Below, one piece after another: positions 7,506 to 55,021 of a stretch of 64,000 nt of DNA; positions within the stretch are counted from its first letter, which is position 1, and each line of letters opens with the position of its first letter. The DNA lies in the NCBI RefSeq assembly GCF_022201045.2, contig NC_068556.1:3698001-3762000 (forward strand), in the 5' to 3' direction. The position numbers and the translations under genes are program-made. Source of the DNA: Citrus sinensis. Lineage: Eukaryota > Streptophyta > Magnoliopsida > Sapindales > Rutaceae. The notes beneath the pieces were generated by a model, which searched no databases, was not told where the DNA came from, and saw nothing but the letters and a program-made list of their open reading frames with translations.

Positions 7506-9286
7506 ATGGGGAGAGCTCCATGTTGTGACAAAGCCAACGTGAAGAGAGGACCCTGGTCTCCCGAAGAAGATGCCACTCTTAAGCGTTATGTTGAGACCCA
7601 TGGCACTGGCGGTAACTGGATTGCTTTGCCTCAAAAAGCTGGTATATTCTAATTTTCCTCTCTTTCTCTCACACAGTACCCAATATCACCACCAAAAAAA
7701 AAAAAAAAATTTCTTTTCTTACAAGTTATAATCAAGTTTACTCAATATCCATTTCAAGTTTCTTTATCTTTGTTAGTTTAGTTCAAGCAAAATTATCCAT
7801 CTGATCATGAAATGTAATGTAACCAAAGGAGAGTGTTTTCTTTCTTTTTCTTTTTTTTAAATTTTTTAAAAAATTTCCTCTAAATTTATTATTATTATCC
7901 TATTATTTTTCCTTTAAACAATTTGACAGATTCCTTCACTTCAGCCCATTCATCTATTCTCTGAAGGGTTTGTTTTCGTCTTTGCTTTTCAGTTTTGTAT
8001 TTAGTACACACGTTAGAAACAGTACAAGAAAAAAGTAGACTTGCCAGAGGGATTTGTTTGTCTTCTTGTTAGAGATAACATTTTCTTCTGGCCTTGGGGA
8101 CCATCATAAAAGAACCTATACGGCTATACGATTGAAACCCTCATGTGAAATCATATTATTGATCACTAATCAATAATTAATACTGTATAAATGGGTCGGC
8201 TTTAAGCACATCACATCTATACATCTTATAAGCAACAATTTCTTTGTCTTATGTTACGTTATTTTCAATGCTGTAACTTATGTATTTGGTTCATTTGAAT
8301 CTCTTTGGCTGTTAAATTTTCAGGCCTCAAGAGATGTGGCAAGAGTTGTCGTTTAAGGTGGCTAAATTACCTGAGGCCAGACATCAAACATGGGAATTTC
8401 ACTGAAGATGAAGATCATGTGATATGTACCCTCTATAGTCAAATAGGAAGCAGGTAATTAATTTTGCTACTAATCGTATATAGAGTTAATAAACTGCCCC
8501 TTATCTTTATATTTATATTGTTTGATTTTGGGCTTATAATAATTTAATTTCCCACTTGTCGTTTTTGTTATCAGATGGTCCATAATAGCTTCTCGTTTAC
8601 CTGGAAGAACTGACAACGATGTGAAGAATTATTGGAACACCAAGTTGAAGAAGAAGTTACTTGCTGGGAAAGTAAGCCTGCTCACAAGCAACAATGCTAA
8701 CAATTCCCCAATTATTAGCGGCAGCAATCCAACTGATACTAATCATCTTCATGACTCAAATCCTTCAATATCACTGCCAAAATCTGAAGCCTGTGATCCC
8801 CAATATCCAGCTTCACCTACTCAACTCTCTTCTTCGCCATCGATGCCGTTGCTAACTGATCATCATGATCATATTGCTTATGGATTAAGTACTGTAAATA
8901 ATCATCACTTTATTCCCCCTCACTCTGCTGGAATGAGTTTTACTAGTTCTACTGTTTCTCATCAATTGGGTACAAGCTTGAAGAACAGTCCTGTTCTCAC
9001 ATCTTCTCAAGAGGGCTCAAGTGTTACACTGCCTGCTGGAAACAACGTTAACGGTGGTGTTGAAGATGCCGATCAGATTCTAATGGATTTCGGCTTCGGA
9101 ATCGGAGACCCTTGTGATCAATATTATGTCAACAACAATGGCACTCTTTGGTATAATCATCAAGAGAAAGCTACTAGTCATCATGATGATCTGAGTAATT
9201 GGTATCCAAGTTTATTAGCTGCTGATTCTTCTTACGCTGACATTAAGCCACAAGGACTGAATCAAAGTGTGATTAACCAATATTAA
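7506..9286 (+). CDS. R2R3-MYB transcription factor, subgroup 14 (RAX/MYB36/MYB87-like)
   Basis: Three exons: 7506-7641, 8324-8453 and 8575-9286, giving 325 residues. The protein opens with [20 protein letters not shown], the conserved start of plant R2R3-MYBs. R2 covers about residues 14-64 and ends in the [15 protein letters not shown] block. R3 covers about 67-115, with the usual aromatic replacement of its first tryptophan (NFTEDED), then [20 protein letters not shown] and [12 protein letters not shown]. Both introns sit at the classical R2R3 positions. The [20 protein letters not shown] segment and the KKKLL end point to subgroup 14, whose members control axillary meristems (RAX) or Casparian strip formation (MYB36). 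No bHLH-interaction signature is visible. The C-terminal part is Ser/Asn/His-rich and ends QSVINQY. Which member it corresponds to is uncertain. Confidence 0.93.
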
Positions 9287-30200: not shown

Positions 30201-32005
30201 ACATCTTTGTAGTTATTAATAGAGTTCTCCACTTCACTCGCTTTTCCCAAGGGAGAAAATGTACAAGTTTTGAAATGAAAAATTCCGGTCTTCTGCTGGT
30301 GGTATTTATTACTGAAATTTTGCCAAGTGATTCTTGTTTAGGAACTTGTTACAATTGTGTGTATCGTAGTCTTTGACCATATTCTCCTTTTTTTTTTTTG
30401 TCTCTGACTTTATTGGAGTGCACTAGGATTGCTAGAGTATGATTGTAATTAGAGAGCTAGGGAGAGATTTTAGGCTTCTTTGACACTTGTAGGTGCGTGA
30501 GGCTAGCTGTATCTACAATGGGCGTTGGATAAAAAGTGTGGTTATGGTCTAAAAAGTTTGTACTTGGTGAAATTTTTTGTTGGATATTGTAATTTTAAAG
30601 CCAACCCAAATAACATCTTGCATTTGCATGTATGCAAGTTGTTTTGTTCTGCATGCTACAGCCTTCATAATTATGGTATATGATATCTGATCGCATGTGG
30701 ATGTCCATTGGATTCTTGTTAGTCCTATCTCTGTGCTGTGTTTGTTAAACTCCTTTAATGATTTCTATGGAATTTGGTTCTTGATGCAACTCCTGTTACT
30801 GTATACAGTCAGCAAAGAGTGTTTGCAGTTCAAGTATTTGAGTTGCATAGACTAATCAAGGTAAGGATGTCTTAACTCTGTGAAGTAGCTTATACTTCTC
30901 CTGGCAAGGGCTGCAGACTCTCTTGCCTTTATTTTTTTCCTGTTGAAAGGAAATTAAATTAATCTGTGTATTCAAACAGGTCCAACAACTGATTGCTGAA
31001 TCACCAGACGTTTTGCTTGAAGAGAGCGCCTGTCTTGGCAAACCATCTTTGAAGGCCTCTCCTGCTAAAAAACTTCCATTGGAGTATGTTGTAAAACCAC
31101 TGCCACACAGTGTTAAGCGCAAAGTTGATTCTGAGAAGCCTAACCATAAGATAGAATCCTCTGCGGAAAATGCTGTAGGGAAGACGTCTCTTTCTTCTGT
31201 GAAAAATGGTAGTCAGCCTTCAAATTATGGGCCTTACTGTGCAAACCAACCTCCACCAATGGAAGCCACCAATTCCAGAATGGCTCATTGGTGTTTTCAT
31301 CAATCGCCTGGGCAGCAGTGGTTGATTCCTGTTATGTCCCCTTCGGAGGGGCTTATATACAAGCCATATCCTGGACCTGGATTTATGGGAACAGTTTGCG
31401 GGGGAGGATGTTCACCTTTTGGCCCAGCACCTCTGACAGGTAATTTTATGCATCCAGACTATGGGATTACATCACCTATTCCTCTTCAAGGAAATGGGGT
31501 TATGCCTGGTGCTCATCTAGTTGGTCATGGTTACTTCCCACCTTATGGCATGCCAGTTATGAACCCATCGGTCTCAGGTTCAGCTGCTGAACAAAAGAAT
31601 CAGTTTGCTGTGCCAGGTTCGCGTGATCAATTCTCTCAAGGAGATGCTAATTTTTACATGCCACAAGAGAGCTCCTGTAATGTACCAGCCCAGAAGAATG
31701 GAGCTGTTCCACCAGTAAGGCAGTTTCAGGCATCTAAAGACACAGAGTTACAAGGAAGTACGGCAAGTAGTCCAGGTGAGAGAGTGCGAGGTGATGGGAT
31801 GGGTCATGCTGCTGAAGGTACAGATGCACTTCAACTTTCTACCGTGTCTCCAGTTGTTCAGGAGGCGGCCCCTCAGCCTCATGATGCAGACCAGCCAACA
31901 AAAGTGATCAAAGTTGTGCCTCACAATCCTAGATCAGCTACTGAATCTGTGGCTCGAATTTTCCAGTCTATACAAGAAGAGAGGAAACAGTATGACTCAA
32001 TTTAG
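27271..32005 (+). CDS. ELF3: EARLY FLOWERING 3, evening complex scaffold
   Basis: Four exons, 27271-27486, 28043-28920, 30809-30860 and 30980-32005, encode 723 residues (Arabidopsis ELF3 is about 695), with the same four-exon layout. Conserved blocks: the N-terminus [20 protein letters not shown] with [20 protein letters not shown]; the central block around residues 340-400, [20 protein letters not shown] and [20 protein letters not shown]; and the C-terminus [20 protein letters not shown] ending [12 protein letters not shown]3 is a nuclear scaffold that joins ELF4 to the LUX transcription factor and represses growth and flowering genes at night; it also interacts with phytochrome B. Residues of the last exon form a Pro/Gly/Ser/Gln-rich, prion-like segment without a long polyglutamine run. 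The second intron is large (28921-30808). The complete frame argues for a functional gene. Confidence 0.95.
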
Positions 32006-32421: not shown

Positions 32422-32926
32422 AAGTCCACAAAACTGACTTCCCTCGTATGTTGTAGGCTTGTCACATCTGTAGCAATACAAACACTTATCATGAACTGAG
32501 CCTTTACTATGCTGTGCTATTGGAATTTCTTGACAAATTTATTTAACTGCAGGCGTAAGCATGTCACATTAATTACCAAATATTTTTATATATGTTATTG
32601 GCATTCATACCAAGCTGCAAAACTACCATAATAAAAGAAACTGCCCCGGTCTTTTTTTTCTCCTCCTTGTAGACTCAAACAAAAAAAAGCATGGCATCCA
32701 GACCGCCTTGTTTTTAATGTGTGCCCATTTTTGCTGGAATGTGTAGACTCTACACCCCCAGACCACCCTGTTGGCTGTGTCTGCCAGTTTTGTGAAAATT
32801 GTAGTTGGGCGGTATCCGATGCTTACACCTTATATCTTAACCACGAACTTCTCGAGCCTATATCCTGAAACATTTGCTAATTTTTTTGAGCATGCAATTG
32901 AATGGCGTAAAGCATGAGTAAATTAC
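32422..32926. other. Intergenic between ELF3 and the neprosin array
   Basis: No gene seen. The last neprosin exon (expected here for the broken copy next door) was looked for and not found. Convergent 3' ends meet in this stretch. Confidence 0.45.
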
Positions 32927-34435
32927 CTTGTAAATCGCAATAAAAACTTCATATTGGTGGTTGTAATCACCATCTTCAGAAACAGGCTCTAGTACACAGC
33001 CAAGATACTGTGTACTGGACACTTGAACGAAACCAAAGCATTTGAGATCATGGTAACCTGTTTTGCTGAATTTATCTTTCTGAATTTGACATACAATATG
33101 GAAAATTAACATGCATGTTAAGCAAAAACATTGACAATTTATATGATTAAGAGAATCTATGATAATTAAAGCTCACTGTCAAAAATGCAACTAGCCGTGA
33201 AAGGTTGTTTCCATATAGTGTTGGATTCACCTAAAAACGCGAAAAAAATATACCCATAAACAGTCAATTAGACTATGATCAAAATAATAAGAGCGACGAA
33301 ATATGCTCCAAGTTCTGGTTCAATATTTCTATGATGACAATGCTATATTTGCTGCAGGATTTGAGCAAAAATAAAAACAGCAAAGATATGATTATGCTGT
33401 CAATAATATCCTGCAAGATTGTAGGAACAATTTGTTTTTGAATTTATGATATCAGATATATGTTAAAGATATGTAGGCAGATTTTTTGGCTTTGTTTGTT
33501 TCTTTTCTTTGAATAAATTCAGATACTGCAACAATGAATGACATGCAATTAACAGCCCCAATTTCTCTGTGTTCTGTTCTCTTTGTTTAAAATCAACATT
33601 CTACATATTTAATCATATCCAGTTTGGAAGAGCATGTATCAAAGGTTCCATATGCGTAAAATGTATACGTTGAAGCCATGAATGCATATCCATCCAGCAT
33701 CAGCAATATTTAAGTCTGCATCAACGAAAATGATTAGCAGAATGTGAAAAGTATTATAGGCGGCATTATTCATTGTTACATGTTATATTTAACCTCATAT
33801 TCATTGCTGTTAAAGCCGAATCCATAGGTGGCACTTCTGCTTGATCGAGTGTCCATAAGATTACCATCTGGCGAGTTCTTAAAATGGTGACTGTTCCTTC
33901 TGGACAGTCGACTGCCTTGAGTTGAATAAGCTGTGTGTGGGAATTTTTGGAGGCCATAGATTTCTTTTGTTCTGGGTGTGAAGTAGGCTTCATCTGTTAA
34001 TTACTCTAAGGGAAATCAGAAACAAGAGCATTTACCGAGTACTAGTCACTTGAAATAATAGCAATTTCGAAGGGGTTTACCATATGTGCTTATAAATTTG
34101 CACCAAGTACTTATAAAACCAAGAAACCTGTATCTTGTGATTCTTGAGAAGAGGATGATTAAAAGCCGGTTGTTTGTAGATGTCAATGCAGTCGACACTA
34201 ACCCCATTTTCGAGAAGCAAATACATCCCTATGAAATCATCCTACCAAATGAATTGAGAAAAAAGTTATGGTAATCACAACCTGAAATGGTTTTAAAAGC
34301 ATGTTTATGCTTGATAAGCTTCTCTTTGTTTTTTATCATTGCAGTTTTCTCTTTAGCAAATCCATGAATCAACATGAGACCGGTGATAACTAGAGTCAAA
34401 TGCAAGCAACAGTGGATTGAAATAGTGGCAGCCAT
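32927..34435 (-). pseudogene. Neprosin-domain gene, broken copy (copy E)
   Basis: Recognisable exons in transcription order: exon 1 34435-34282 (MAATISIHCC signal-peptide-like start), exon 2 34228-34128 (CIDIYKQPAFNHPLLKNHKI), exon 3 from 33993 (MKPTSHPEQK, then DCPEGTVTILRT, stop at 33766-33768), exon 5 33230-33177 (VNPTLYGNN) and exon 6 33079-32927 (KTGYHDLKCFGFVQVSS). The exon that should carry the first catalytic glutamate (exon 4) and the last exon with the WGG-E motif were not found. Exon 3 also changes reading frame after the CPEGT motif. The copy belongs to a more diverged subgroup than its neighbours and is probably non-functional, although an unrecognised splice form cannot be excluded. 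Confidence 0.75.
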
Positions 34436-34751: not shown

Positions 34752-36809
34752 TTACATACAGTGAGGATTTTGACCAGGCCCTCCAAAGAAGAATACAGGT
34801 TCAACAGTATATCCTTGAATTAAATTATATGCATCATAGCAATCTTCTTCATCAGCCCAAGTGCCTACCCATTGCGGGTACTTGAGCTGGAGAGAATAAT
34901 CAATGATTCTAATATGGTCAATGTAACACGCTGATCCGTAGAGCGAACTTGCAAATGATCCGCTGCCCATAGCAGTCTTGGTGTGTGGAGTTTTCTTCAC
35001 ATTTGGACTGTAGACTTGCCCTCCCCATTCAACAAAGATTGCACTTTGCTTCAGGTAATCAAAGAGAGCTCCAGGCCAGTACCCAATAACAGCATCGCCA
35101 TACGTTAACCACCAATTTCCTGTTTGAGGGTCCTGGAATCAATAAAAATGGACTTCATTAAATATTTACTGCTGATTTATAACTTCAAACAATCAACTTA
35201 ACCAAGAAAAAGCAGATATAAATTGTTACCCTGGACATGGCAATGGGAATGTAATACTGGGGTCCGGCAGTACTAGACCAAGGACTAATGGATGCACCAA
35301 GGGCAATCTGAGTGCCTGTTTGCACAAAACCAGTGCAGGTCAGGTCGAAGCAACCGGTTGATTTGTAAGCATCCCTCTAAAAAAATTGAGATAGACATGG
35401 AACAAATTAGCTACTGTACTTGCAATCCAAAGTAGTTTAGAGAAGCTTTAGTAGAAAATATACTTACAGTCCAGTATGCAAAAAATCGTGGGAGTTTATC
35501 ACCATATAACTTGGGATTTATCTGAATATAGAGATTATAGTAAAGTTAGAGAAAAATATAAAGATGCTAAATTGTTAGCATTGACTGTTTTGTGAAGCAT
35601 GCTTTGGGTAGTTGTACAGACCATCCATCCTGACTCCACACTTTCAAAATTGTCACCAGGCCCACCCTTAAGCCAGATTTGAGCAGTGGTATAATCTTCT
35701 GTTGATTCAACGTTTGGACACCAGACATTTATATTTGCTTGAGCTCCTATGTAATTGTATCCTACTGTAAGCAGGACTGCAGCCTGGTACATGAAGTGCC
35801 GTCAAGAAAATTAAGAGAAGTTAAACAATGGAAATTAATTACGGGCGTGAAAAAGCTCTAGCTGCTCACTGAACGGTTAACCAGACGATCAAGATTGACT
35901 GTCTTGCTGTTTAGAGACACAAATTTGCTGTGTTTAGCATCTGTTTTGTTGGCTGCATAGGAAATTTCTGGGAATTTTCTCCCAAACTGCTCAAGAGAAG
36001 CTGCTGTCAATAAGTCTTGTCTTCGAATTCTTCGAATTGGAACAGTTCCATTCGGACAACTTCCACTCTTTTGCCAAGTTTGGACTGCTACTGGTCTAAA
36101 AGACTCATTTCTTCTATCCAATTTCCCAGATGGTATATTAAAACTGGGCCTCAGCTGTATATAACATGAAGCAAAGACAAGTGAGAAAATAACCAAAGTT
36201 CTTGCAAGTGCAAAATTCTTTGTATTTTTGATAGAAAGGGAACTTTCTACCTTTGGTTCTTTTCACCAGTGGCTCGGAAATTGAAAAATGAATTGATCGA
36301 TGTACCTGAATCGTGTGGTTCTTCAATGCTGGATAATCAAACGCAGGCTGTTTGTAGATATCAACACAGTCGATAATATCTCCATCTTCACTCTACAGGA
36401 GGAACCATCACATTATGTTATTAAAGAACTCATCACTTTATGGAAGAAAATGGCTACCGTATATGCTATTCTTTCACTATCTTAATAACAAAAACTGCCC
36501 AGCAACGCTCTATTAAACATTTGACAAGCCAGTGGGATTTTTAAATACTATAAGTTTAAGAAGAAAAACCACCCTTAATCACTTTTGGACTCATTGATAC
36601 AACTTTGGCCTCCCAAGTTTAGAACTTGATAAGATCTAAATATTTATTGTATGCCATACCTTGATACTTTTTACTGCTGGCTTGTTGATAAGCTTCAACT
36701 TCTTGTCAATTTCAGAAAGGGTTTCTCTAGCTTTAGCATTCACTTTTACTCCGTTACTCAAACTAGATGCAGCCACTATAAACAAAAGCACACAGACTGT
36801 TTTCTCCAT
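34752..36809 (-). CDS. Neprosin-domain secreted protein (copy A), Glu-to-Gln at catalytic site
   Basis: Seven exons: 36809-36660, 36392-36306, 36154-35870, 35783-35622, 35521-35468, 35376-35230, 35132-34752; 421 residues. An N-terminal signal peptide (MEKTVCVLLFIVAASS) is followed by the neprosin activation region ([32 protein letters not shown]) and the neprosin (DUF239) domain: YIGAQANINVW, NFESVESGW, STGCFDLTCTGFVQ, GNWWL, IGYWPGALF and the C-terminal [10 protein letters not shown]. Neprosin from pitcher plants is a secreted proline-specific endopeptidase using two glutamates. Here the first is kept (about E224), but the WGG-E-V motif reads WGGQV (Q334; codon at 35016-35018). Peptidase activity is therefore doubtful. 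Substrate and role are unknown; the domain family is large in plants. Confidence 0.88.
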
Positions 36810-37604
36810 ATGTGCTTTCTCACAAAAGCCAACAGGACTTGTAGGAAAATCCCAGATGACGAAGATATTGTAAAGCTAAATTATCATCTTCAAGGTGCAA
36901 TTAAATAATCATTGGTGTTCAAACACCCTGCTTCAAGTTATTGGAAAGTCGATTAATCTTTTAATTCTGTTTCCATTTCAAGTTGGTTCTAGCAAAGTTC
37001 CAGGCAAGTTATTTAATAAGGTAGCCTAATCCAAACAAAAGCAGTGGATTTTCTTTTTCTTTTTCTAAAAATGGAAGACAAATTTGTCTATTCAGGAAGA
37101 ATTCCCAGACAGATCTTAAAACTTACTCCTTAATATATGTTGTGATAAGAGAATTGTTAGTGCGAATACACCTATAGCGGATAGGATCCTCTCCTCATGT
37201 TAGTTTTCACCTTAGCAATCTTATGCCCCGTGTACATTATCAGTCAGGTACCTGTAAATCTCCATAGCTAACATATTATCTGTAAAGAATAGCTATCTTT
37301 CAGTTCATTCCCATCTGTTGTATCTGTAAATCTCTAAAGCTAACATACTTAAGCAATTCCATTCATACTTTGCACCTTCGGATTGCCAACTGATTACTAG
37401 TTAAAAATACTTTGGATTTCACAGCTTATGATGGATCCGTTTTGGGCATATCAGCTCCATTAATCTTCACAGCAACATCATGAAGGGAGCGGATACGTTG
37501 ATGTTTTTCACCAATTGGATGTACAGTAACAGATAAGGAGCTGTGAAAATCACTATGTTATATTACACTGATTTCATTATGCTTGTTGCTTTAATTCATA
37601 ATTC

Positions 37605-39732
37605 TCACTTACAAATAGGATTTTGACCAGGCCCTCCGAAGAAGAACACTGGTTCAGTAGTATAGCCTTTAACATAATTGTAAGCATCATAGCAGTAATA
37701 TTCGTCAGCCCAAGTGCCTACCCATTGAGGGTACTTGAGCTGAAGAGAAAAGTCTATAATTCGAACGTGCTCGATTGAACAAGCAGAACCCTGAAGACCA
37801 TGTGAAAATGATCCGCTCCCCATGGCAGTTTTTGTATGAGGAGTTTTCTTCACATTTGGGCTATAAACTTGTCCTCCCCATTCCACTAATATTGCACTGT
37901 ACGATAGGTAACTGAAGAGACTTCCAGGCCAATAGCCGACAACAATGTTACCATTAACTTTTAGCCACCAATTTTTTGTGTTAGGATCCTGAAATTGAAA
38001 AAGAAAAAAAAAAATGGAGTTTTACATTTTTAGGTGCATTAAAGGAAAAGAAAGAAAAAAAAATTATTACCATCATACCAAGTATATGCCGACCGGCAAA
38101 TAATACTGGGGTCCTTCAGAAATCGACCAAGGACCAATGGCTGCTCCAAGGGCTACTTGTCCTGTTTGCACAAACCCAGAGCAAATGGCATCGAAGCATC
38201 CTGTCGATTTGTAGCTATCCTTCTGAGATGAACATGTTTGGAACCAGTAAGTAAGAACCACAATTCACTTCTGGGGTGAGAGTTTTTAATGAAAATTGAT
38301 ACACTTACAGTCCAATATACAAATAATCGCGTCAGTTTATCACCATATAACTTTGGATTTACCTGAAAAAAAAAATTATAATTAGATTAGGAAGAAAGCA
38401 TAAATATGTAGAACTGTTAGCATTTTTATTTACATTATTGGTAAATGTACTAACCACCCATCCTCCCTCTACGCTTTCAAAATTGTCACCAGGCCCACCT
38501 TTGAGCCAAATTTGAGCAGTAGTATAATCATCTGGCGATTCAACTCTCGGATTCCAAACGTTTATATCTCCTTGAGCTCCTATGTAATTGAATCCGACTG
38601 TAACAAGTACTGCAGCCTGGTTCAGGAATTGTAACCGAGAATATTAGAAGTAGCTTTTATGCAATTGTATTGTGTTGTAAGAAGGGGTGCAGCCTGGTAC
38701 TTAGTACCATCAAGAAAATTAGGAGAATTTGAAACAACAAGAATTTATTAAGGGCATGAAAAAGCTACAGCTGCTCACTGAACGGTCAACTAGAGGACCA
38801 AGGTGGATCGTTTTGTTGTTTATAGACTCAAATTTGCCGTGTGTAGCATCTGTTCTATTAGCTGCATAGGATACTTCAGGGACTTTTCTCCCAAATTGCT
38901 GAAGAGAAGATGCTCTCAATAAATCTTGCCTTCGAATTCTTCGAATTGGAACAGTTCCGTTTGGACAACTTCCACTCTTTTGCCAAGTTTGAATTGTTAC
39001 CGGCAGCCTAGAAGACTCATTTCTTCTATCCACTTTCTCGGCTGGTATATCAAAACTGGGGCTCAGCTGCATATTGTATGAAGCAAGACTAGTAAAAATC
39101 TAACAGAATTGTAGTCAGTGCAAGTTTCTAACCATGATCTTTCATAAGTAGCTCAGGAAAAGAAGAGAGAAATGATAAAATGCACCTGAATTGTGTGGTT
39201 CTTCAATGCAGGATGATCAAGTGCAGGTTGTTTGTATATATCAACACAATCAATAATATCTCCATCTTCACTCTACAGAAGGAAACATCCCATTATGTGC
39301 ACTCTATGAAAGATAAACTCTACCATAAATGCTAGTTTTTCAGCGTCTTAAAAGGAAAAACAACTGCTGATGCTCTATTAATTTTTTGACAAGCCAGTAT
39401 TATTTTTTTAAGTATTAAAATATTTACAGCAGAAACCACTCCTGGGTTAATGGTTAGTAACAAGAGTGGTTGGTAGCAAAACTCAAAAGTTAAGGGAGTG
39501 AGTACCAACCACCCAAAACAAGAGTGAATTTTTTTTTTTTTAATAAATATTAAGGATGTAAAATACCATTACTCACTTATACCTTAATGCTTTTTACTGC
39601 AGGCCTGTTGAGAAGCTTCAACTTCCTGTCAATTTCAGGAAGAGTTTTTCTAGCTTTAGCGTTCACTTCTACTCCATTACACAGGGTAGATATAGCCCCA
39701 AACAACAAAAACAAATAAACTGTTTTCTCCAT
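37605..39732 (-). CDS. Neprosin-domain secreted protein (copy B), Glu-to-Gln at catalytic site
   Basis: Seven exons: 39732-39583, 39272-39186, 39066-38779, 38616-38455, 38362-38309, 38222-38079, 37988-37605; 422 residues. Exon layout and phases match copies A and C. It has a signal peptide ([17 protein letters not shown]), the activation region ([25 protein letters not shown]) and a complete DUF239 domain ([67 protein letters not shown]). The first catalytic glutamate is kept (about E225); the second position is glutamine (Q335, WGGQV, codon 37869-37871). It is closest to copy C, and the two share sequence beyond their stop codons (37420-37600 with 42216-42370), which shows recent duplication. 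Confidence 0.88.
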
Positions 39733-40439
39733 TTTTGCTCTGTTACAAAAGCAGCTTTGGCGGCAGAAACAAAAGCATCAAGAGTGATTGGAAAATCGAA
39801 ATTTCCTGATGACACAAACACTGTAAAGCAAAAGTGTCATTTTCCAAAGTGCAATTATGTAATATTTATTGCTCATTAACCCTGCTTCAAGTTCATTTGA
39901 AAAGTCAAATTTTTGTTTCCATTGCAGGTGGGTTCTTGCAAAGTTCCAATCAAGTTATTTTATCCAAACAAACCCAAATCCAACTGATTTATTCTTTTTC
40001 TAAAAATGGAATACAAAATTGCCTTATTCAGGGATAATTCCCTCGGAGGTCTTAAAAGTTATTTCCTTAATATATATTGTGTTATTAATGTTTAAGAATG
40101 CTAGTTATCCTAAAAGTTTATCCTAAACTCACGTGGGTTTCATTTCTTCAAGTGGAGGGTAAAATGGCGGATTAAAAATAGTGCAAAATCATAATCACTC
40201 AATTAATGCCACATCTCATGACAACTAATTTGTGATAAACTTGTTGAGATATCTGTTATTAGTTCATTGTTAACGTTTGAGTTGTGAGTACGAACACACC
40301 TACAAAAATAGGCAAAAGAACAAAGTTTTTGACTTACAATTAAAGAATTGCTTTCTCAATTGATTCCCCTCTGTTGCATCTGCAAATCTCCGAAAGCAAA
40401 CATAAAAAAAAGAAGTATTTTCCATTCATTTTTTTCACC

Positions 40440-40494
40440 CTTCAAATTGACAATTGATAGTTACTTTAAAATATATTAGATTACACTGCTTATA
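40440..40494. repeat. Left half of the copy C downstream flank, paralogous to 37377-37434
   Basis: The sequence around AATTGACAATTGATAGTTAC up to CACTGCTTATA resembles ATTGCCAACTGATTACTAGT up to CACAGCTTATG in the flank of copy B. The matching right half resumes at 42216, so the transposon 40495-42215 interrupts an otherwise collinear flank. Confidence 0.7.
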
Positions 40495-42215
40495 TGTAGT
40501 GTTTATTTTCTGGAGTGAGAGTGAGAAGTTTGGATTCCTCCCACTCTAGTATTTACTTACAATTTTTAAGGAGAGAGTGGATTGAATCCACTCCCCCCTC
40601 TTCCCTTTTTATCCTTATATTTAAAATAAAATAAATAATATTTAATAAAAGGAAAATTATCAATCATATACATTTAAATGACACTCGTATCAAACGTGTG
40701 TGAATACTTTTCAAGTGTATCACTCGTATACCCTAAGTTGACAAAACATTTCTGCCGTCCACCAATCCGTTAACTTCCGTTTGCAAGCGCTGACATCATA
40801 AGGGTAATTTAGTCTTTTAAGATTGACGAAACTTTGATTAAAAAAAACGACATGTCATCCTATTTACCTAGTAAAAAATGACATGTCATATCATATATAT
40901 TGATAAAAATGACATGTCATCCCATTTATCGGATAATTGTTAATAATTACTAAAAAAAACTACTTTACAACCGAATCTACTTCTCTGAAATTTAACCTAA
41001 ATTTTTGAAGATCTACTCCTCCAAGCTCCAACTAAAAATTTTTATGGTATAATATGTATAATTGTAAATAATATATTGTTAATAATTTTTTATGGTATAA
41101 TATGGATATTTTTTTATGGATAATTGTTAATATTATGTGCCATTAATAATTCTTTTTTTTAATCAAAAAAATGTATTGTTAATAAAAAAAATAAAAAAAA
41201 TTTTGTATTGAAAATTTACGTTAATTTTTTGGGTAAATTTATATTTTTACCTCATTTTGAGTTTCAAGGGCAAAATAGTCAATTTGTCACAATTCTGTTA
41301 ACTTTCTAACGGAAGTTAACAGATTGGTGGACGACATAAGTGTTTTGTCAACTTATGGTATACGAGTGATACACTTGAAAAGTATTCACACACGTTTGAT
41401 ACGGATGTCATTTAAATGTATATGACTAATAATTTCTCTTAATAAAATAAAATAAATAACATCATATTTATTTAAATAATATTATTATATTATATTATAA
41501 ATTACATTTATTAAAAATAATAATAAACATACTTATTTTATTAGATTTAATAAAATAAAATAAATAATATTAAATTTATTTAAATAATATTAGTATGTTA
41601 TTTTATAAATTAAATTTATTAAATAATAATATTACACATAATTAAATATAATATTATTATATTAGTTAAAAATAATAATTTACATTGATTCTAAGTTAAA
41701 ATTACTTAAAAATAATATTATTATACTCATAGAGAATTAATAATATTACTATATTATATCTTTATTTGGAAATATAATATTATTATATTTATTTAATTAA
41801 TAATAATAAATATTTTATTTTAAAAAAATATTAATTTTCTACTATATTATCAATGATAATGTTTCATTTGTGTTGCTATTATTAATAATTTTTTATATAC
41901 ATAATTCAAATTCAAATTAATAAAAAATTACGATTTACATAATTAAGAATATTAATAATTATTATTAATTTATAAATATAATAAAATAAATATTTTATTT
42001 TTCAAATATATTTTTATTAATTTTGTAATTAAAAATTATAATTCTTTAAATAAAGGTAAAACTGTAATTTAAATTATTTACTACCAATCCAAGACAATTT
42101 CATACTCCCACTCAAGTGTAAGTAAATAACATACTCTCACTCTCATTCCACACTTTTAATTTCAAGATTCTCACTCTTCAGAATTCCCACTCCAATCTAA
42201 AATGTAAACTCTACC
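40495..42215. mobile_element. Non-autonomous TIR transposon, 1.7 kb, PIF/Harbinger-like
   Basis: The left end TGTAGTGTTTATTTTCTGGA and the reverse complement of the right end GGTAGAGTTTACATTTTAGA are inverted repeats, and both continue into GAGTGAGAGTGAGA-type sequence. ATA flanks both ends (40492-40494 and 42216-42218), giving a 3-bp target duplication. The unoccupied form of the site is seen in the paralogous flank near 37425. The interior is extremely AT-rich (41440-42060) with no ORF, and a Mutator-like MITE is nested at 40651-41438. Confidence 0.7.
40651..41438. mobile_element. Mutator-like MITE, 788 bp, copy 1 (nested)
   Basis: Terminal inverted repeats of about 150 bp: the left arm starts GGAAAATTATCAATCATATA and the right arm, reversed, starts GAGAAATTATTAGTCATATA. 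Both contain CGTGTGTGAATACTTTTCAA. The target duplication TTAATAAAA (9 bp) lies at 40642-40650 and 41439-41447; long TIRs plus 9-11 bp duplications are typical of Mutator-like elements. No transposase. It has three copies of the self-complementary GACATGTCAT at 40849, 40880 and 40911, where copy 2 (55196-55919) has one. Confidence 0.88.
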
Positions 42216-42373
42216 ATAATGGATCCGATTTTGGCACATCAGCTCCATTAAACTTCACAGCAACAATATGAAATGAGTGGATACTTTGATGTATAGCTAC
42301 AGTTGGGGAGCTGTGAAAATTACTTTGTTACATTGAAATGAGTACGTAACGCTTTTGCTTTAAATCATGATTC

Positions 42374-44228
42374 TCACTTACAATTAGGATTTTGGCCAGG
42401 CCCTCCAAAGAAGAACACTGGTTCAGTTGTGTATCCTTCAACAAAATTATATGCATCGTAGCAATAATATTCATCAGCCCAAGTGCCCACCCATTGAGGG
42501 TACTTGAGCTGAAGAGAATAGTCTATAATTCGAACGTGCTCTATTGAACAAGCAGAACCTTGAAGACTATGTGAAAATTCTCCACTGCCCATGGCAGTTT
42601 TTGTATGAGGAGTTTTCTTCACATTTGGGCTATAAACTTGTCCTCCCCACTCCACTATTGTAGCACTGTGACTTAGGTAACCAAAGAGACTTCCAGGCCA
42701 GTAGCCAACAACAACGTTACCATTAAGTTTTAACCACCAATTTCCTGAGTTAGGATCCTGAAAATCAACAGACATGGAGTTTACATACATAGTAGCATCC
42801 AAAAAGGAAGAAAAATGTAATTTAAAATATTACCAGGGATATGCCAACAGTCACATAATATTGGGATCCTCCAGAACTGGAGATGGGGCTAATGGTTGCG
42901 CCAAGGGCTATTTGTCCTGTTTGCACAAACCCAGAGCAAATGGCGTCAAAGCAACCTGTCGATTTGTAGCCATCCCTCTGGAAACAAATATAAGATGAAC
43001 ATGCATGGAACAAGTAGTTAAGTACCGTCATTCACTTATGGGATGAGTTTTTTTTTTTTTTTTTTTTTTTTTGCGCAGATAATTGGTGTACTTACTGTCC
43101 AATACACAAATAGACGCGTGAGTTTATCACCATATAACTTGGGATTTACCTGGAAAACAGTTTATAATAAGATTAGGAGCAAAGCATAAAGATATAGAAC
43201 TGTTGGCATTTTTTGTTTGTTTTTGGTAAATGCACTAACCACCCATCCTCCCTCTATGCTTTCAAAATTGTCACCAGGGCCACCCTTAAGCCAGATTTGA
43301 GCCGTAGTATAATCATCTGGTAAGTCAACTTTTGGGTTCCAAACGTTTATATCTCCCTGAGCTCCTATATAATTGTATCCGACTGTAACAAGTAATGCAG
43401 CCTGGTTCAGGAAGTGTATCAAGAAATTAGGAGTTAAGCAACAAAAAAATATGTTCAGGAAATGAAAAAAGGGCAAAAAAACATGGCAGCTGCTTAAAGA
43501 GGGCTTACAGAACGGTTAACTATGGGAGGAAATCCTAATGGTTTGCTATCGTTGAAAGACATAAACTGAGTTTCTTTAACATTTGTTTTGTTTGCTGAAG
43601 AGGGAATTTCCGGGGCTTTTCTTCCAAAATTTTCAAGAGAAGCTGCTCTCAATAAGTCTTCCCTCTGGATTCTGCGAATGGGAACAGTTCCATTCGGGCA
43701 ACTTCCACTCTTTTGCCAAGTTTGCATCATTACAGGCCGCGGAGACTCGTTCCTTCTATCCAATTCCTCCGACAGTAGATCAACACTAGGTTTCAGCTGC
43801 TTATTACATGAATGAAGACAGTCCACTTAAGGCTTCATTTTTCAGAAAACAAATGTTCTCCAAATCATAGAAGGGGTAAGAATAATAATAAATGCACCTG
43901 AATTTTATGGTTCTTCAATGCTGGATGATCAAATGCAGATTGTTTGTAGATGTCAACACAATCTATAATATCTCCATCTTCACTCTACGGGAACAATCTC
44001 TTACATTAGAGTGCCAACATAATAAGTGACGAAAATTGTCCAGGGGTACTAGACTAGTAGCATGTGACATACCTTAATACTTTTTACTGCAGGCTTATTG
44101 AGAAGCTTCAGTCTCCTATCAATTTCAGAAATAGTTTGTCCAGCTTTAAGTTTACTATCGACTCCATTTCCCAAAACAGATACAAACGTTACCAGCAAAA
44201 GCACAGAAATGGTTTTGGCATTCTCCAT
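42374..44228 (-). CDS. Neprosin-domain secreted protein (copy C), Glu-to-Gln at catalytic site
   Basis: Seven exons: 44228-44073, 43984-43898, 43796-43509, 43401-43240, 43149-43096, 42977-42834, 42757-42374; 424 residues. The start chosen is [20 protein letters not shown], which lines up with copies A and B; an in-frame ATG 93 bp upstream (44321) would add a non-hydrophobic extension and is less likely. The domain is complete: [82 protein letters not shown]. The first catalytic glutamate is about E227; the second is replaced by Q337 (WGGQV, codon 42638-42640). A poly-T run of about 25 lies in intron 5 (43048-43072). Confidence 0.88.
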
Positions 44229-44938
44229 TTTTGTTTCAGAAGCAAGTATGAAGCCAATGACAGTTTCATCTTCAACATAACAATTATATAATATCATAAT
44301 GCATTGGGGTGTATTAACCATGCTTCAGGTTGATTTGGAAAGCTATGATATTGTTTCCATTTCAATTTAGACTCCTTGCTTATCAGCCAAATGATTTATA
44401 AGCAATATTCTAAACCAAAGACACCAGCAGAAGTTTTTCTCAAAATGGAAATAAGTTGTCTTACTAGGAGAGTCCACATATGGTGTCTAATTTGCGGTGT
44501 TATTATTTCAGTTGTAAGTTCCCTAATTCTGACCAATATACAGATTCAGAAAGTTATATTTGGTAGAAGGAAAAAAAAAAAAAAGGGAAAAAGGAAAGCT
44601 CTGGATAAAACTGCAAGAAATAGGCAAAAACAACAAAGAGTCAAAACTCCACATTAAGCTAACATTTGTATTTCCATTTATACTTTGCTCCACTTATTCT
44701 GATGTTTACTGGCTAATTGTGCTTTATGGTGCAGCATCCAAAAGAGATTATTCGCAGAATTTATTCTTGCGGACCACTGAGTAGCTGAATTATCAAATCT
44801 TCAAATATGACCGGTCGTGTTTTGCAAGAAGTAGCAAATAATCAAAATTAAGAAGCATCTAAAATATTAGCTTGCCACCCAAGAAAGTGGTGGCAAATCA
44901 GCAAGCATCCGTTTGTAGCTAGAATCTGTTACAAGAGT

Positions 44939-46797
44939 TTAAGGGCACAAGTGATTTCTTCCAGGTCCTCCAAAGTAGAACTCAGGATCTACAATGTAGT
45001 CTCCAACATAATCGACACCATAACAGTTGTACTGGTCTGTGTAACTATACACCCATTCGGGAAACTTCAATGTACGAGAATTGTCAAGAATTCTAATTCT
45101 CTTGACACTGCCTGAATTACCGGAAATATAATCAGGAAAATGCCCATTTCCCATTGCTGTTGCTGTGTGAGGAGGATTCTCCAACTTCGAGCTATAGACC
45201 TCGCCTCCCCATTCGGCACTTTCTGCACCACTGGGTAACAAACTAAACAACTTAGGGGGCCAGTAACCTACATTGATTTTTTCTCCATATTGCATCCACC
45301 AGTTGCCTGTGTCCGGATCCTGAAATCAGAAAAGATAAGAGATGAACCAATAGGAAGTTGCAAGTAAAAGAACCTTCCATCAGAAAAATGTGAAAATCCA
45401 TTATTGCTTCCCCTGCAAACTATTAATTAAATCAAAATAAAGCTGCATTTTCTCCGACCTTAAAGAGGTATATAGTGATCTGATATGGAAGCCCATTAGG
45501 ATTTGAAATGGGATAAATTGCTGCACCAAGCGCAATCTCGTTGCTGACTTGAACAAAACCGGGGCAAGTGACATCAAAGCACCCTGTTGTCTTTGATGCG
45601 TCGGCCTAATACATGAACAAAACATTGTTTATTGATACAGCAATATGCATTACAACATTTTTAAGTCATGGTTGGCATAAACCTACAGTCCAATATACAA
45701 ATAATCGAGTTTTTCTGTCCCCATACACTCTTGGATTTACCTGAAAATTTAGGCAAAAATTAATAAATTAATAAAATAAAATAAAATAAAAGAAAGAAAG
45801 AATTGTGGGGATTAAGAGATTCTTTAATGAATGATAATGAACTTGAAGACAATTGAGTGGCTTCATAATTAAATTAGTACTAACCGCCCATCCAGACTCG
45901 ATGCTCTCAAAGTCATAGTAAGGGCCACTTTGCAGACTAACACGAGAAGTACTATACTCATCATCTGATTCAACAAAAGGGTTCCAGACTTTGATGTCTC
46001 CTTTTGCTCCAGAAAACATGTACCCTACTGTAAGCAGTATTGCTTTCTAATATTTTTACACAAAGCCAAGTCAGATAAAAACATATTTTCAAAAATTAAG
46101 TATAGTTTTATCACTCCATCATGTATGATTGAATCTTACTGAATGATTTGGTTGCTGAAGGTTTGGTTGCTTAATATCATTAAGCTGCTTAACACGATGA
46201 TAGAAGCTTGGCTGCTTCCTGCCATAACCTTCAAAGGAATTCGAGTTGTGAATTCTTCTCACTGGTATTGTTCCTTCAGGACAGCTTCCATTTTTTCTCC
46301 ATATTTGTGATGCCATAACAGTCGTGGATGTTTCTGTATCAGCTGATCCTGTTGTCACTGTCTTCCCATTTGGATCATAAGTGGGTGTCATCTGAATCAA
46401 ATACATAGTGGTAACATTATTGAATTTTTTTATTTAAAAGAAAATACTAGAAGTGTTGTACTTGTACCTGGATAATATGATCCTTTAAAGCAGGATGATC
46501 AAATGCTGGCTGCTTGTAAATGTAGACGCAATCGATAATATCTCCATCTTCACTCTACAAGGACCAAGAAGTTTCAATGATACATAACTTAAAAATATAG
46601 TCAAAGAAGTTATATTTATATATACATACCTGAATGCTTTTCACTACATTGCCGTTGCTGTTGAGATGATTTACTTTCCTTCCAATATAGGAACTCTTTT
46701 GTCCGGAGATTATCTCACCCTTTGCAAACTCATAACTTATTACAAAAGTTACTCCTAGTAGAATTATGAACCCTTTGCATCCCAGTATATACTCCAT
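44939..46797 (-). CDS. Neprosin-domain secreted peptidase (copy D), catalytic Glu kept
   Basis: Seven exons: 46797-46630, 46554-46468, 46391-46140, 46046-45885, 45740-45687, 45605-45459, 45319-44939; 416 residues from [20 protein letters not shown] (an in-frame ATG 24 bp upstream at 46821 is possible). Motifs: [52 protein letters not shown] (about E219), [30 protein letters not shown], then EWGGEVYSS with glutamate at about 330 (codon 45200-45202). Unlike copies A-C, it keeps both presumed catalytic glutamates and is the most diverged of the intact copies. It is the array member nearest the retrotransposon. Proline-specific endopeptidase activity is inferred from the family, not shown. Confidence 0.85.
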
Positions 46798-49551: not shown

Positions 49552-51674
49552 AAAGTAGAAGCCCAAATCCAATTTTGAGCACACATTAAGGCTTCCAAAA
49601 TGTCAGGAAAAAGTTTACTACGATGCAGACTAAAAAATCTGCCCCTGGCACTAAAAGCTTACTCAGAGGCAACGATGGATACAGGAATGGCTAAGATATC
49701 CTTAGCTAACTCAGCCAAAATAGGATATTGGCTTGTGTGCATCTTCCAAAAAGCTAAAATATCAAAGTCCGGAATAGAATCCAACAATTCCTCATCTAAA
49801 TACCTATCCAACTCCGACTTAGTTACCTTAGCACGTTTATTTTGACTTCGAAATGTTTCAAACTCATCTACATCCCAATACTTATTCGAATTCGAACAAG
49901 ATTCAGAATGAGAAATTTCCAATCCAACATTCTGCCCACCACTCACATGCGCTGCCTTCGATTCATATTCTTTCACTAAATCATAACAAAGCTTATGTGC
50001 ACACTCAATAAGCTCATCTGATGTATCACCATATATCTTTGGAAAATAAAAATGAATTAACATCATCTTATATCTTGGGTCAAGCACAACAGCCACAACT
50101 AACATCGGATGAATTTCATTCCAATATTTGTCAAATTTATCAGCCATTTTATCAGTCATAATCCTAATAGCAAGGTTATCAGCAGTGCGCCACCTATTAA
50201 TTGACAATTTCATTTTACATATCAAAGGAAAAAAACAAATTAGCAGTTGGCTATTTTTTACCCGAAAACATCTCCATTAACATGTAAAATGATTTCAAAT
50301 GCTCCACCATTATGACTGTCAAATCTCACTCCTCATCACTTGGCAAGCTCTTATACTGAGGCTCACGTTGTTGCAACCGAGAAAAAATACTTTTATACAT
50401 CAATGCTACTTCAAGCGTGGCATAAGTAGAGTTCCAACGAGTAGGACAATCCAATTTCAATTTTTTTTTACAATTAATTTGTAATTGTCTAGCAGCTAAC
50501 TCAAAAGTTTCATATCTTTTTAGTGTTTGTGTCCAATAACTCACACTCTCTCTAATCTTTCCACTCTCACTTTCTATAACTTTCAACCCATCCCGCACAA
50601 CCAAGTTCAATATATGAGCAGTACATCTCATATGAAAAAATTTACCACTAGAAATTAAGGTATCGGTATCAAACCTTAACAACAATTTCTCCACCATTGC
50701 GTCATTAGTGGTACAATTATCCAATGTCATTGAGGATAACTTTCTATCCACGTTCCAATCCAATAGGCATTGTACTAACTCATTACAAAGGGCATCAGCA
50801 GTATGGGGGCTTGGAACATAGACGAACCTATCAAATATTCAAAAGTCGGTATTAAATACACAAACTTAAAATATATTACAATTTAAACTTGAAAAAAAAA
50901 ATCTAATATAAGTAATAATAAACTAAAAAGAAAAATTAAGCAAATAAAAAATTATAGACAAATTACCTTAAGATTCGACTATGCAATTTCCAGGAATTGT
51001 CAATGAAATGGGCTGTCACGACCATATATCCCTTTTTCTGATTACTAGTTGTCCATAAATTTGTAGTAATGGCCACTCTACCATGATTTTTCCCCAATAA
51101 ATGCAAAGTCTTAACCTTCTCGATTTGATATAACTTCAAGATTTCGCTCTTCAAAGTGTTTCTGCTCATTGGCTTAACCACATGGTTAGCATGTGTCATC
51201 ATTTCTCGGAAGCTTATATATTCTACGAATATAAGTGGAAGCTCATGCATTATAACCATTCTTGCTATCAAACTCCGTAAAACATTTTGATCAAAACTGT
51301 CATAACTAATGCCACAAGTTTCATCCTCTCTTTTAATCACTTTAAGGCTTCCCTGAAGTGCTTCTTCAATGTTTGGTTAATTCTGCAAAACACATTGCCA
51401 CGTGTCTATTCAAAGTTGAAGTCCTATATTGGTATTTTGCTTTTAAAATTGCACTACAATGCATGCACTTTGCCTTTTGTTCTCCATTTACCATTATTTT
51501 TGTAAAGTGCTCCCAAACTTCAGAGACTTTCTTCTTTTTTCTAGTTTCTTCCTTACTTTTCTTATCATTCACGGTTGACACTGAAATTTCCTCAACCTCA
51601 TTATCAGTTTTATCTTCGACATTACAAGATAAATCTGGAGCACTCGAAGAATTGATTTTCACGTTGTCCGACAT
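49552..51674 (-). pseudogene. hAT transposase (BED zinc finger, dimerisation domain), degenerate
   Basis: Segments in transcription order: 51674-51366 (MSDNVKINSS start; BED finger with VWEHFTKI, AKCMHCSAILKA, STLNRHVAMC), 51340-50963 (FREMMTHAN, GRVAITTNLWTTSNQKKGYM), 50820-50326 after a probable intron (TLDNCTTNDAM, HMRCTAHILNLVVRDGLK, LDCPTRWNSTYATLE), and 50225-49552 (MADKFDKYWNE, VVAVVLDPRYKM, DILAFWKMH, IPVSIVASE). These are the standard blocks of Ac/Tam3-like transposases. Within the dimerisation domain, a stop codon (about 49656-49658) interrupts the usual SxxAFS block, which continues AFSARGRF after it. A one-base shift joins the first two segments. So the protein is not expected to be functional. 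Confidence 0.88.
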
Positions 51675-52865: not shown

Positions 52866-54106
52866 ACCATAGCATACATAACACTCCCCACTGCATTTGA
52901 ATAGAGAATATTCTTCATATATTCTATGTCTACGTCAGTTGTTGGCTCATAGAGCTTAGAGAGCTTAGAGAGCTTAAAATGAGCTGACAAATGTGTCAAC
53001 ACAGGTTTAGCACTGTCCATGATGAACCTATTGAGCATTCTCCTTACATAACCAGCCTGAGTAAGGAACAAAGTTCTTGCTGGTCTGTCTCTTACAATCT
53101 ACATACCCAGAATTTTCGTTGCAGCACCTAAATCTTTCATTTCAAACTCAGTGCTGAGCTGCATTTTGAGTTCCTCTATGGCTTCCCTCTGGTTGCATCC
53201 AATGAGCATGTCATCCACATAGAGAAGTAAGTAGATGTAGCTGTCATGAGTCAAGCTTCTGTAGTACACACAAGTGTCATACTGACTTCTGCTGTAACCA
53301 CGGCTGCTCATAAACTAGTCAAATCTCAAATACCACTGCCTTGGAGACTGCTTTAAGCCATATAAACTTTTCTTAAGTAAACACATCATATCTTCAGTCC
53401 CTTCTTCTATGAAACCCTCAAGTTGTGTCACAAAGATTTCTTCATCAAGGTTACCTTGTAAAAAGGCAGTTCTTACATCCATTTGGTCTAACTCTAGGTC
53501 AAGAAAAGTAGTAACAGCAAGCAACAACCTTATGGAGCTGTTTTTTACCACTGGTGAGAACACTTCATTAAAATCCACTCATTCTTTCTGTGTGAAGCCT
53601 TTAACTACCAGTCTTGCCTTGTACCTGGGTTGTTTATCAGCAGACTCTCCATCCTTGAGCTTATAAATCCATTTATAGCCTACTAGTCTTTTATTGAAGG
53701 GTTTTTCTACCAAGATCCAGGTGTTGTTTTTCTTAAGAGAGGCTAATTCTTCTTTCATTGCAGCAAGCCATTTAGCTTTATCTCTTCTACACATGGCTTC
53801 CTTATAGCTCATAGGTTCTTCACCACTTAGTTCTTCAGCAACACTCAGTGCATATGAGATAAGGTCAGCAATGCCATATTTCTTAGGCATTCTTATTGTT
53901 CTCCTCTCTCTATCCCTTACAAGCTGATAATTGTTAAGCTCATAGGATTTGAGCTCCTTGTCAGATTTCTCTAGAGTCATTTCTGCAGGTTGGTAGCAAT
54001 CAACATGCTCCACCCTCAACTCAGCATCTTGTTTTCTATATGAACCAGTAGACATTACCTCAGTTTCTACTTTAGACAGCAGCATTGAGTCTTCATCAAA
54101 CACCAC
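52866..54106 (-). pseudogene. Copia polyprotein: reverse transcriptase part
   Basis: Minus-strand segments hold the linker and reverse transcriptase: EEPMSYKEAMCRRDKAKWLA and MKEELASLKKNNTWILVEKP, YKWIYKLKDG, RYKARLVVKGFTQKE (53579-54106), then DFNEVFSPVVKNSSIRLLLA, LDQMDVRTAFLQGNLDEEIF (53315-53578), and the catalytic LLLYVDDMLI (53099-53311), ending RRMLNRFIMDSAKPV (52820-53071). Stop codons separate the segments (for example at 53579 and 53312), so no continuous polyprotein exists even apart from the hAT insertion at 52855. Confidence 0.9.
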
Positions 54107-54958
54107 ATCCCTATTAATTAGAGTTCTTGAGGGCTTGTCATGTATGCACCAGATCTTATGCCCTTTGGTGCCTTTTGGATATCCTATAAAGTATCATTTC
54201 ACTGCTCTTGGCTCTAATTTGCCCTAACTAACATGAGCATATGCATTGCAGCCAAAGATTCTGAGGTTAGTAAGATCTGATGGTTTTCCTGACCAAGCTT
54301 TTTGTGGAGTTCTGAAGTTTAAGGCTGATGAAGGGCTTTTATTCACTAGATAAACTGCTGTTGTAACTGCCTTAGCCTAGAAATGCTTAGATAGGTTTGT
54401 ATTGAACAACATACACCTTACTTTCTCAAGTAAGGTTTTATTCATCCTTTCGACAAGGTCATTCTGCTGTGGGGTGTGCCTTACTGTTCTGTGCCTTGCT
54501 ATGCCCTTGCTCTTACAAAATTCATCAAATTCATTACTGCAATACTCCAGTCCATTGTCTGTTCTTAGCCTTTTTATCTTCTTACCAGTCTGATTTTCTA
54601 CAAGTGTTAACCATTCTTTAAACTTCTTCAGAGCCTCACTCTTCTGTTTTGACATATAGATCCAGACATTCCTTGAGTAGTCATTAATGAAGGTTATGAA
54701 GTACCTAGCTCCACCATGAGAGGGAACATGTGATGGTCCCCATAGGTATGAATGAATGTAGTCCAAGGTCTGTTTTATTTCTTTTCTTCCTGTATTGAAT
54801 TTTTGCATTGTAGCTTTACCAAAAACACATTTTTCACAGAATTCTAATGAGGATATGTGGTCTTCACCAAACAAACCTTGTTTCTCTAATTCTTTTAACC
54901 CTCTCTCACTTATGTGTGCTAGCCTTATGTGCCACAACTTGGTTTTATCATTACTCAT
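54107..54958 (-). pseudogene. Copia polyprotein: integrase part
   Basis: An open segment at 54377-54958 holds the zinc-binding HHCC region (LWHIRLAHISERG, CEKCVFGKA) and the integrase core: ITFINDYSRNVWIYM, KRLRTDNGLEYCSNEF, HTPQQNDLVERMNKTLLEK. The first acidic residue of the DDE triad, normally in an HSDLWGP-type motif, is replaced (HSYLWGP). Stops follow at 54377 and further downstream to 54106. A non-functional remnant. Confidence 0.88.
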
Positions 54959-55021
54959 AGTGGTTGTAATTCCAGGTAAGAGACAAGACCCTACTAGAGC
55001 ATAAAAGCCATTCCTTCTAAC

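Follow-up and report, generated by a model that had tools for sequence, protein, structure and literature searches.

Neprosin and related proteins

Neprosin of Nepenthes, a glutamic prolyl endopeptidase with several solved structures (Protein Data Bank entries 7zu8, 7zva, 7zvb, 7zvc, and 9qr8), serves here as the reference for a tandem cluster of four complete neprosin-like genes, copies A to D, found on the minus strand of a 64,000-nucleotide stretch of the Citrus sinensis genome (C1:3698001-3762000 in genome coordinates). The whole stretch is referred to below as the window, and the positions of copies A to D and of a relic copy, E, are given in window numbering. Copies A to D resemble neprosin in the combination of a prodomain with a catalytic domain, in six cysteines, and in E188, the first catalytic glutamate, but differ from it elsewhere in the active site: copies A to C by E297Q, H134R, and Y136A, and copy D by Q173R, W175S, Y214S, and Y136K. 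Their sequences make it likely that all four are intact, conserved neprosin-fold pseudopeptidases that no longer function as glutamic peptidases of the neprosin type and whose likeliest job is binding.

In the mechanism proposed for neprosin, water is activated by E297, which H134 and Y136 keep in position, E188 binds and polarises the scissile carbonyl and is itself held by Y214, T186, and Q173, and the oxyanion hole consists of Q173 and W175 (PMC9343461). The E188Q and E297Q mutants fold but are inactive, the Q173A and W175A mutants have lost all activity, and H134A, Y136A, and Y214A each remove about 80% of it (PMC9343461). The Glu pair on which the original prediction for this window relied is thus that of the published work, and the expected loss of catalysis upon an E-to-Q change has been obtained with exactly the E297Q substitution.

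Two further groups of proteins are relevant for comparison. Eqolisins (family G1, e.g., SCP-B), as described in that paper, have a beta-sandwich in common with neprosin and use a Glu/Gln working dyad; the SCP-B cross-mutant Q107E is inactive (PMC9343461). The eqolisin arrangement, with Gln at position 188 and Glu at position 297, is reversed in copies A to C, and copy D has Glu at both positions. The Arabidopsis HOLO family, which includes LOTR1, has 43 members that combine a Neprosin_AP with a Neprosin domain; LOTR1, which acts in Casparian strip formation, was reportedly detected solely as the full-length protein (PMC8794472). These plant proteins are like copies A to D in their two-domain layout and predicted secretion. 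By analogy, LOTR1 may offer a precedent for function without maturation.

Natural E297Q relatives of neprosin with a mirrored neighbor do not appear to have been described, although pseudoenzymes themselves are well known. No paper joining neprosin and pseudoproteases was found in the searched literature, which falls short of most subscription papers; the available passages on DUF239 proteins contained nothing on catalytic residues. Likewise, no paper was found for the letters WGGQV and WGGEV, and the matches to WGGEI were unrelated by title.

Neprosin-like gene cluster of Citrus sinensis

The four genes are as follows.

Copy A, 34752..36809, minus strand: seven exons, 421 amino acids (aa), prodomain (Neprosin_AP) and Neprosin domain (spliced model, Pfam)
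Copy B, 37605..39732, minus strand: seven exons, 422 aa, neprosin-like (spliced model)
Copy C, 42374..44228, minus strand: seven exons, 424 aa, neprosin-like (spliced model)
Copy D, 44939..46797, minus strand: seven exons, 416 aa, both catalytic Glu kept, with Q173R, W175S, Y214S, and Y136K

All introns in these genes are GT-AG and of phase 0, and there are no internal stops, which upholds the earlier description of copies A to C as otherwise intact. In whole-protein scans of copies A and D, both matched the Pfam domains Neprosin (PF03080) and Neprosin_AP (PF14365), with 233 and 122.1 bits for A and 240 and 106.9 bits for D against curated cut-offs of 22 and 39.2 bits; with B and C showing 73-78% identity to A, the entire cluster belongs to this family. 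In MAFFT alignments, copies A to C are 42-44% identical, and copy D 37% identical, to the solved neprosin over nearly the full length. The earlier claim that copies A to C bear signal peptides holds insofar as a hydrophobic stretch is present at the N-terminus; all four proteins are probably secreted. No clear pattern emerged from the domain charges, and they play no part in the interpretation.

The six cysteines that form disulfides in neprosin are all present in copies A to D, which bears on a proposal that the chemistry of these proteins is of a different kind, with the Glu pair dispensable. For LOTR1, such chemistry is proposed from a Cys/His resemblance to MepS, and the C255A and C260A variants localised normally but failed to complement (PMC8794472). 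Cysteines matching C255 and C260 are found in copies A to D; however, they correspond to C219 and C224, which are among the listed neprosin cysteines and lie in a region common to copies A to D and neprosin, so that a lost disulfide would explain the LOTR1 result equally well. As neprosin itself needs its Glu pair (PMC9343461), we regard this alternative as very improbable.

Position 297

The original prediction stated that three adjacent paralogues have Gln where the fourth has the second catalytic Glu. The codons agree with this statement.

Copy A, 35016..35018, minus strand: E297 site, CAA, Gln (WGGQVYS)
Copy B, 37869..37871, minus strand: E297 site, CAA, Gln (WGGQVYS)
Copy C, 42638..42640, minus strand: E297 site, CAA, Gln (WGGQVYS)
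Copy D, 45200..45202, minus strand: E297 site, GAG, Glu (WGGEVYS)
Copies A 35634..35636 (residue 224), B 38467-38469, C 43252-43254, and D 45897-45899, minus strand: E188 site, Glu (positions hand-derived from the exon table)

A phmmer comparison of copies A and D with the solved neprosin chains and a MAFFT alignment of copies A to D identify the previously noted first Glu as E188 and the residue that follows WGG as E297; the refuting case of another residue being the catalytic one does not apply. The spacing between the two is 110 residues in A, B, and C, 111 in D, and 109 in neprosin. A misread or misaligned Gln was considered and rejected on the codons together with these alignments. Thus, copies A to C lack one member of the Glu pair, and copy D has both.

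Remaining active-site residues

The replacements in copies A to D extend well beyond position 297.

Copies A 35873..35875, B 38782-38784, and C 43512-43514 (Arg) and D 46143-46145 (His), minus strand: H134 site, penultimate codon of exon 3 (hand-derived)
Copy A, 35781..35783, minus strand: Y136 site, codon 1 of exon 4, Ala (likewise in B and C; D has Lys)
Copy D, 45942..45944, minus strand: Q173 site, Arg (hand-derived)
Copy D, 45936-45938, minus strand: W175 site, Ser (hand-derived)
Copy D, 45594..45596, minus strand: Y214 site, Ser (hand-derived)

Accordingly, copies A to C combine Q297, R134, and A136 with retained E188, Q173, W175, and Y214, and copy D combines R173, S175, S214, and K136 with retained E188, E297, and H134. 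The oxyanion-hole pair is therefore complete in A to C and absent from D; from the ancillary trio H134/Y136/Y214, copies A to C keep only Y214 and copy D only H134. All four share further changes in the cleft, namely T171, S186, an altered residue 192, N194, and F220 (L171, T186, Q192, Y194, and Y220 in neprosin). The assignment of R134 and A136 is backed by a common phase-0 exon junction, which reads NRS|AAV in copy A and NHS|KAI in copy D; two other MAFFT alignments put S, N, and D of copies A to C at H134, with R134 coming from three further alignments and the junction.

The original prediction used copy D as the catalytic contrast to copies A to C. This does not stand: D carries Q173R and W175S, alanine at either of these positions makes neprosin totally inactive, and D was rejected as an active reference on R173 and S175. 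Because the neprosin Q173 and W175 mutants are inactive, D is expected to be as inactive as A to C. Judged from the sequences, the damage lies on one side of the active site in the lineage of A to C and on the opposite side in that of D.

An altered activity of copies A to C could be envisaged if E188 and Q297 formed a mirrored eqolisin dyad, with E188 as the base and Q297 polarising the carbonyl of other substrates. Eqolisins do work with a Glu/Gln dyad in a related beta-sandwich, and copies A to C keep E188, Q173, W175, and Y214 and are under purifying selection (see below). However, the mutants neprosin E297Q and E188Q and SCP-B Q107E are all inactive (PMC9343461), and in copies A to C other residues stand in for H134 and Y136, the pair that positions E297. 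Such an activity is quite unlikely.

Paralogues in the same genome

The plant comparison covered one genome plus neprosin. A search of the C. sinensis genome (299.7 Mb in 11 contigs) returned at least 31 profile matches and at least 62 protein matches, which group into at least 17 loci: copies A to D and relic copy E, two loci each on C2, C3, and C4, five on C7, and one on C5. The relic adjoins copy A, and its exons were also picked up by the genome-wide search.

Relic copy E, 32713..34211, minus strand: decayed tandem neighbor of copy A, with exons 2, 3, 5, 6, and part of 7 matched

Exon 4 of the relic is not recognised, its C-terminus is gone, and its WGG-E297 motif reads WGCR.

The twelve loci outside the window were modelled by spliced alignment, and nine of the models are stop-free; L022 has one stop, which sat at a wrongly placed junction, L028 has two, and L030 has three. 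Altogether, 14 loci, including A to D, are readable as genes, and three (E, L028, and L030) look decayed. The L019, L020, L021, and L022 models were hand-edited where exon 3 joins exon 4 and where exon 4 joins exon 5; for L021, the stretch containing E188 comes from a tblastn row. The first exons of L023 to L027 are uncertain or missing, and the decayed L028 and L030 were excluded from the alignment and the tree. In L020 and L021, a GC splice donor (GCATGT) is apparent at the intron after the GWQ codons, where A to D have GT.

All nine loci from L019 to L027 keep H134, Q173, W175, E188, Y214, and E297, with position 136 being Tyr in five of them and His in four. Five of these loci (L023 to L027, C7:6354200-6382600) lie in tandem as a second cluster, each with the full catalytic set; across the catalytic part entered in the tree, L024 and L027 do not differ. 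The full set is missing from five of the 14 readable genes, A, B, C, D, and L029, and Q297 is restricted to A to C. Loss of the active site has therefore recurred in this genome. L029 (C4:13649500-13654500) has a stop-free seven-exon model with L188, I297, N173, and A214, and by its sequence is a candidate for another pseudopeptidase. It is like A to D in being a readable seven-exon gene with a broken site, but unlike them it has lost both Glu, and its placement relative to the A-D clade is without confidence.

Bacterial homologues and the Pfam profile

Ten bacterial homologues were compared: two plasmid matches (H1 and H3) and eight of 54 pattern matches in genome contigs. They retain E188 (10/10), E297 (9/9 readable), H134, Y136, Q173, and Y214 (9/10 each), and W175 (8/10). 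Since the patterns that retrieved the eight included either Q173 with W175 or E188 with Q192, conservation at those positions is partly built in; at E297, H134, Y136, and Y214 it is free of this bias. One homologue (L005) has a stop within the match, and another (L003) was left out of the trees and of the count of conserved columns because it ends before residue 297. The first alignment search of genome contigs and viral contigs gave no confirmed relative, the second alignment gave none in viral contigs, tblastn gave no match in phages, and NCBIfam had no family for A, D, P0001, or the neprosin domain.

When neprosin variants were scored with PF03080, E297Q cost 1.4 bits (domain) or 1.1 bits (fragment), and E188Q cost 0.3 bits (domain) or gained 0.1 (fragment). 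The costs were 1.2 bits for Q173R, 3.1 for W175S, and 2.2 for Y214S, and those of the controls were 2.4 for G295S, 4.1 for G190S, 5.1 for W294S, 5.7 for W191S and C219S, 6.2 for G296S, and 8.5 for W277S. The implied shares at position 297 are roughly 0.23-0.26 for Glu and 0.06-0.07 for Gln, values that rely on the HMMER background, with 4 of the 20 letters unmeasured and with HMMER weighting that flattens such columns. The original prediction had allowed that Gln might be common here among active members of the family. It is absent from nine full-set paralogues and nine readable bacterial homologues; the PF03080 profile, which takes in plant members, is nonetheless loose at this column.

Loss of conserved residues in the cleft

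The losses were counted in two sets of conserved columns. The bacterial comparison used 40 columns whose residue is shared by neprosin and at least 8 of 9 bacteria, 11 in the cleft and 29 elsewhere. Of these, A and C each lose 7/11 cleft residues versus 2/29 others (p 0.0005), B loses 7/11 versus 3/29 (p 0.0015), and D loses 7/11 versus 4/29 (p 0.0037), with a similar outcome when the bacterial homologue L002 is omitted. The same-genome comparison used 68 columns invariant in neprosin and L019 to L024, 9 in the cleft and 59 elsewhere; L029 loses 5/9 versus 18/59 of them (p 0.25). The cleft excess has the same direction in both comparisons.

Several results weigh against the interpretation of A to D as conserved pseudopeptidases. 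The stricter same-genome comparison is not significant for any of them: 3/9 versus 6/59 for A (p 0.091), 3/9 versus 8/59 for B (p 0.15), 3/9 versus 7/59 for C (p 0.12), and 4/9 versus 10/59 for D (p 0.079). Part of the bacterial signal is owed to homologues whose search patterns included Q173, W175, E188, and Q192. Further, PF03080 favors Glu over Gln weakly at position 297 and hardly at all at 188, which makes the finding less surprising; the Glu pair may be less important in the family at large than in neprosin. The earlier suggestion of selection specifically for a pseudoprotease goes further than these data, with the cleft-directed loss significant against bacteria and not against the paralogues (p 0.079-0.15).

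The same results could simply reflect a large plant family that evolves loosely and has some structural or cell wall role, with the Glu columns drifting and the loss in this cluster not selected. The profile penalties of 1.1 to 1.4 bits for E297Q and -0.1 to 0.3 for E188Q, versus 2.4 to 8.5 for neighboring structural columns, the broken site in the readable L029, and the nonsignificant same-genome comparison are in line with this view. However, leaving L029 aside, all nine other readable paralogues keep the full set except for Y136, which argues against free drift in this genome. Loose evolution also overlaps with the pseudopeptidase interpretation, denying only that the loss was selected, and we consider it an unlikely account.

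Selection and history of the copies

The ratio of nonsynonymous to synonymous divergence (dN/dS; bootstrap range in parentheses) is 0.239 (0.166-0.322) for A-B, 0.239 (0.174-0.331) for A-C, and 0.276 (0.195-0.384) for B-C, at synonymous divergence (dS) of 0.46-0.72. Copies A to C are under purifying selection, and no looser than the full-set pair L023-L024 (dN/dS 0.459, 0.331-0.606); for L020-L021, dN/dS is 0.085 with dS saturated. The ratios of 0.24-0.28, whose bootstrap ranges reach up to 0.32-0.38, bear out the earlier view that A to C have not undergone random decay. The dS values between D and its nearest relatives, A to C, are saturated; the ratios therefore cover divergence among A to C, and neither D nor the branch on which Q297 arose. 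Thus, A to C combine a missing catalytic residue with an intact gene under constraint, and the gene for D is intact.

The family does lose members, as seen from neighbor E and, elsewhere, L028 and L030, and the replacements in A to C might then mark genes on the way to becoming pseudogenes. Set against this are their open frames, canonical splice sites, six disulfide cysteines, and dN/dS of 0.24-0.28 at dS of 0.46-0.72; decay of A to C was rejected on dN/dS and is hardly credible.

In the tree (built without L002, L003, L007, and L010), copies A to D form a clade (100/100) with a long stem (0.74), in which D is sister to the clade of A to C (98/98). At sites where two of the three copies A to C agree, the A-B pairing is favored in exon 1 (22/41) and exon 3 (48/77) and the B-C pairing in exon 4 (19/35), exon 6 (22/40), and exon 7 (62/96). 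These mosaic relationships suggest exchange between the copies. Because A to C are one clade with mosaic exons, Q297 is, in the simplest account, a single event that was inherited or spread, and the three copies do not amount to the repeated evidence for which they had been taken.

Other features of the window

Several features were noted around the genes.

40649-41440, in the interval from copy B to copy C: a pair of 139-base arms with 91% complementarity, 514 bases apart, by appearance an insertion of the miniature inverted-repeat transposable element type
49662-50276, minus strand: pieces of a hAT transposase, downstream of the cluster
53582-55021, minus strand: pieces of a Ty1/copia-type integrase and reverse transcriptase, downstream of the cluster
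8543-9283, plus strand: exon of a MYB-type gene
30947-32002, plus strand: putative ELF3-like open frame, to which Pfam assigned no family

Putative function of copies A to D

If the effects of the neprosin mutations carry over to copies A to D, which we infer at some 40% identity, the two lineages would have been disabled in different ways. Copies A to C, having lost the water-activating side (Q297, R134, and A136), would not activate water, and the retained E188, Q173, W175, and Y214 could still allow a substrate-like peptide to occupy the cleft. Copy D, though it keeps both Glu, would have lost the oxyanion hole and the support of E188 (R173, S175, and S214) and would have K136 next to E297; going by the contacts in neprosin, the new basic residues may hold the Glu pair in R173-E188 or K136-E297 salt bridges. 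All four proteins probably bind a ligand rather than digest it, and might have been kept for a putative binding role in the secretory pathway or the cell wall, possibly with the prodomain retained, as reported for LOTR1.

A more specific version would derive both pseudo-sites, as mirror images, from one remodelled ancestor with changed residues 171, 186, 192, 194, and 220, after which the water side was lost in A to C and the oxyanion/E188 side in D. The two would then have been kept as complementary cell wall peptide binders that might shield proline-rich peptides, sense them, or compete with active paralogues, for example those of the C7 cluster. This scenario is speculative, and we would not expect it to hold in full.

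Implications

Duplicated proteases commonly lose their catalytic activity, and for this reason the advance is modest. Still, the natural E297Q in copies A to C equals a published laboratory mutant, which makes the prediction directly testable. Large plant families with neprosin domains are usually annotated as peptidases. If many of their members are pseudopeptidases, as five of the 14 readable genes suggest, annotation based on the domain alone misleads, and proteins such as LOTR1 may fulfil their roles, including the one in the Casparian strip, through binding.

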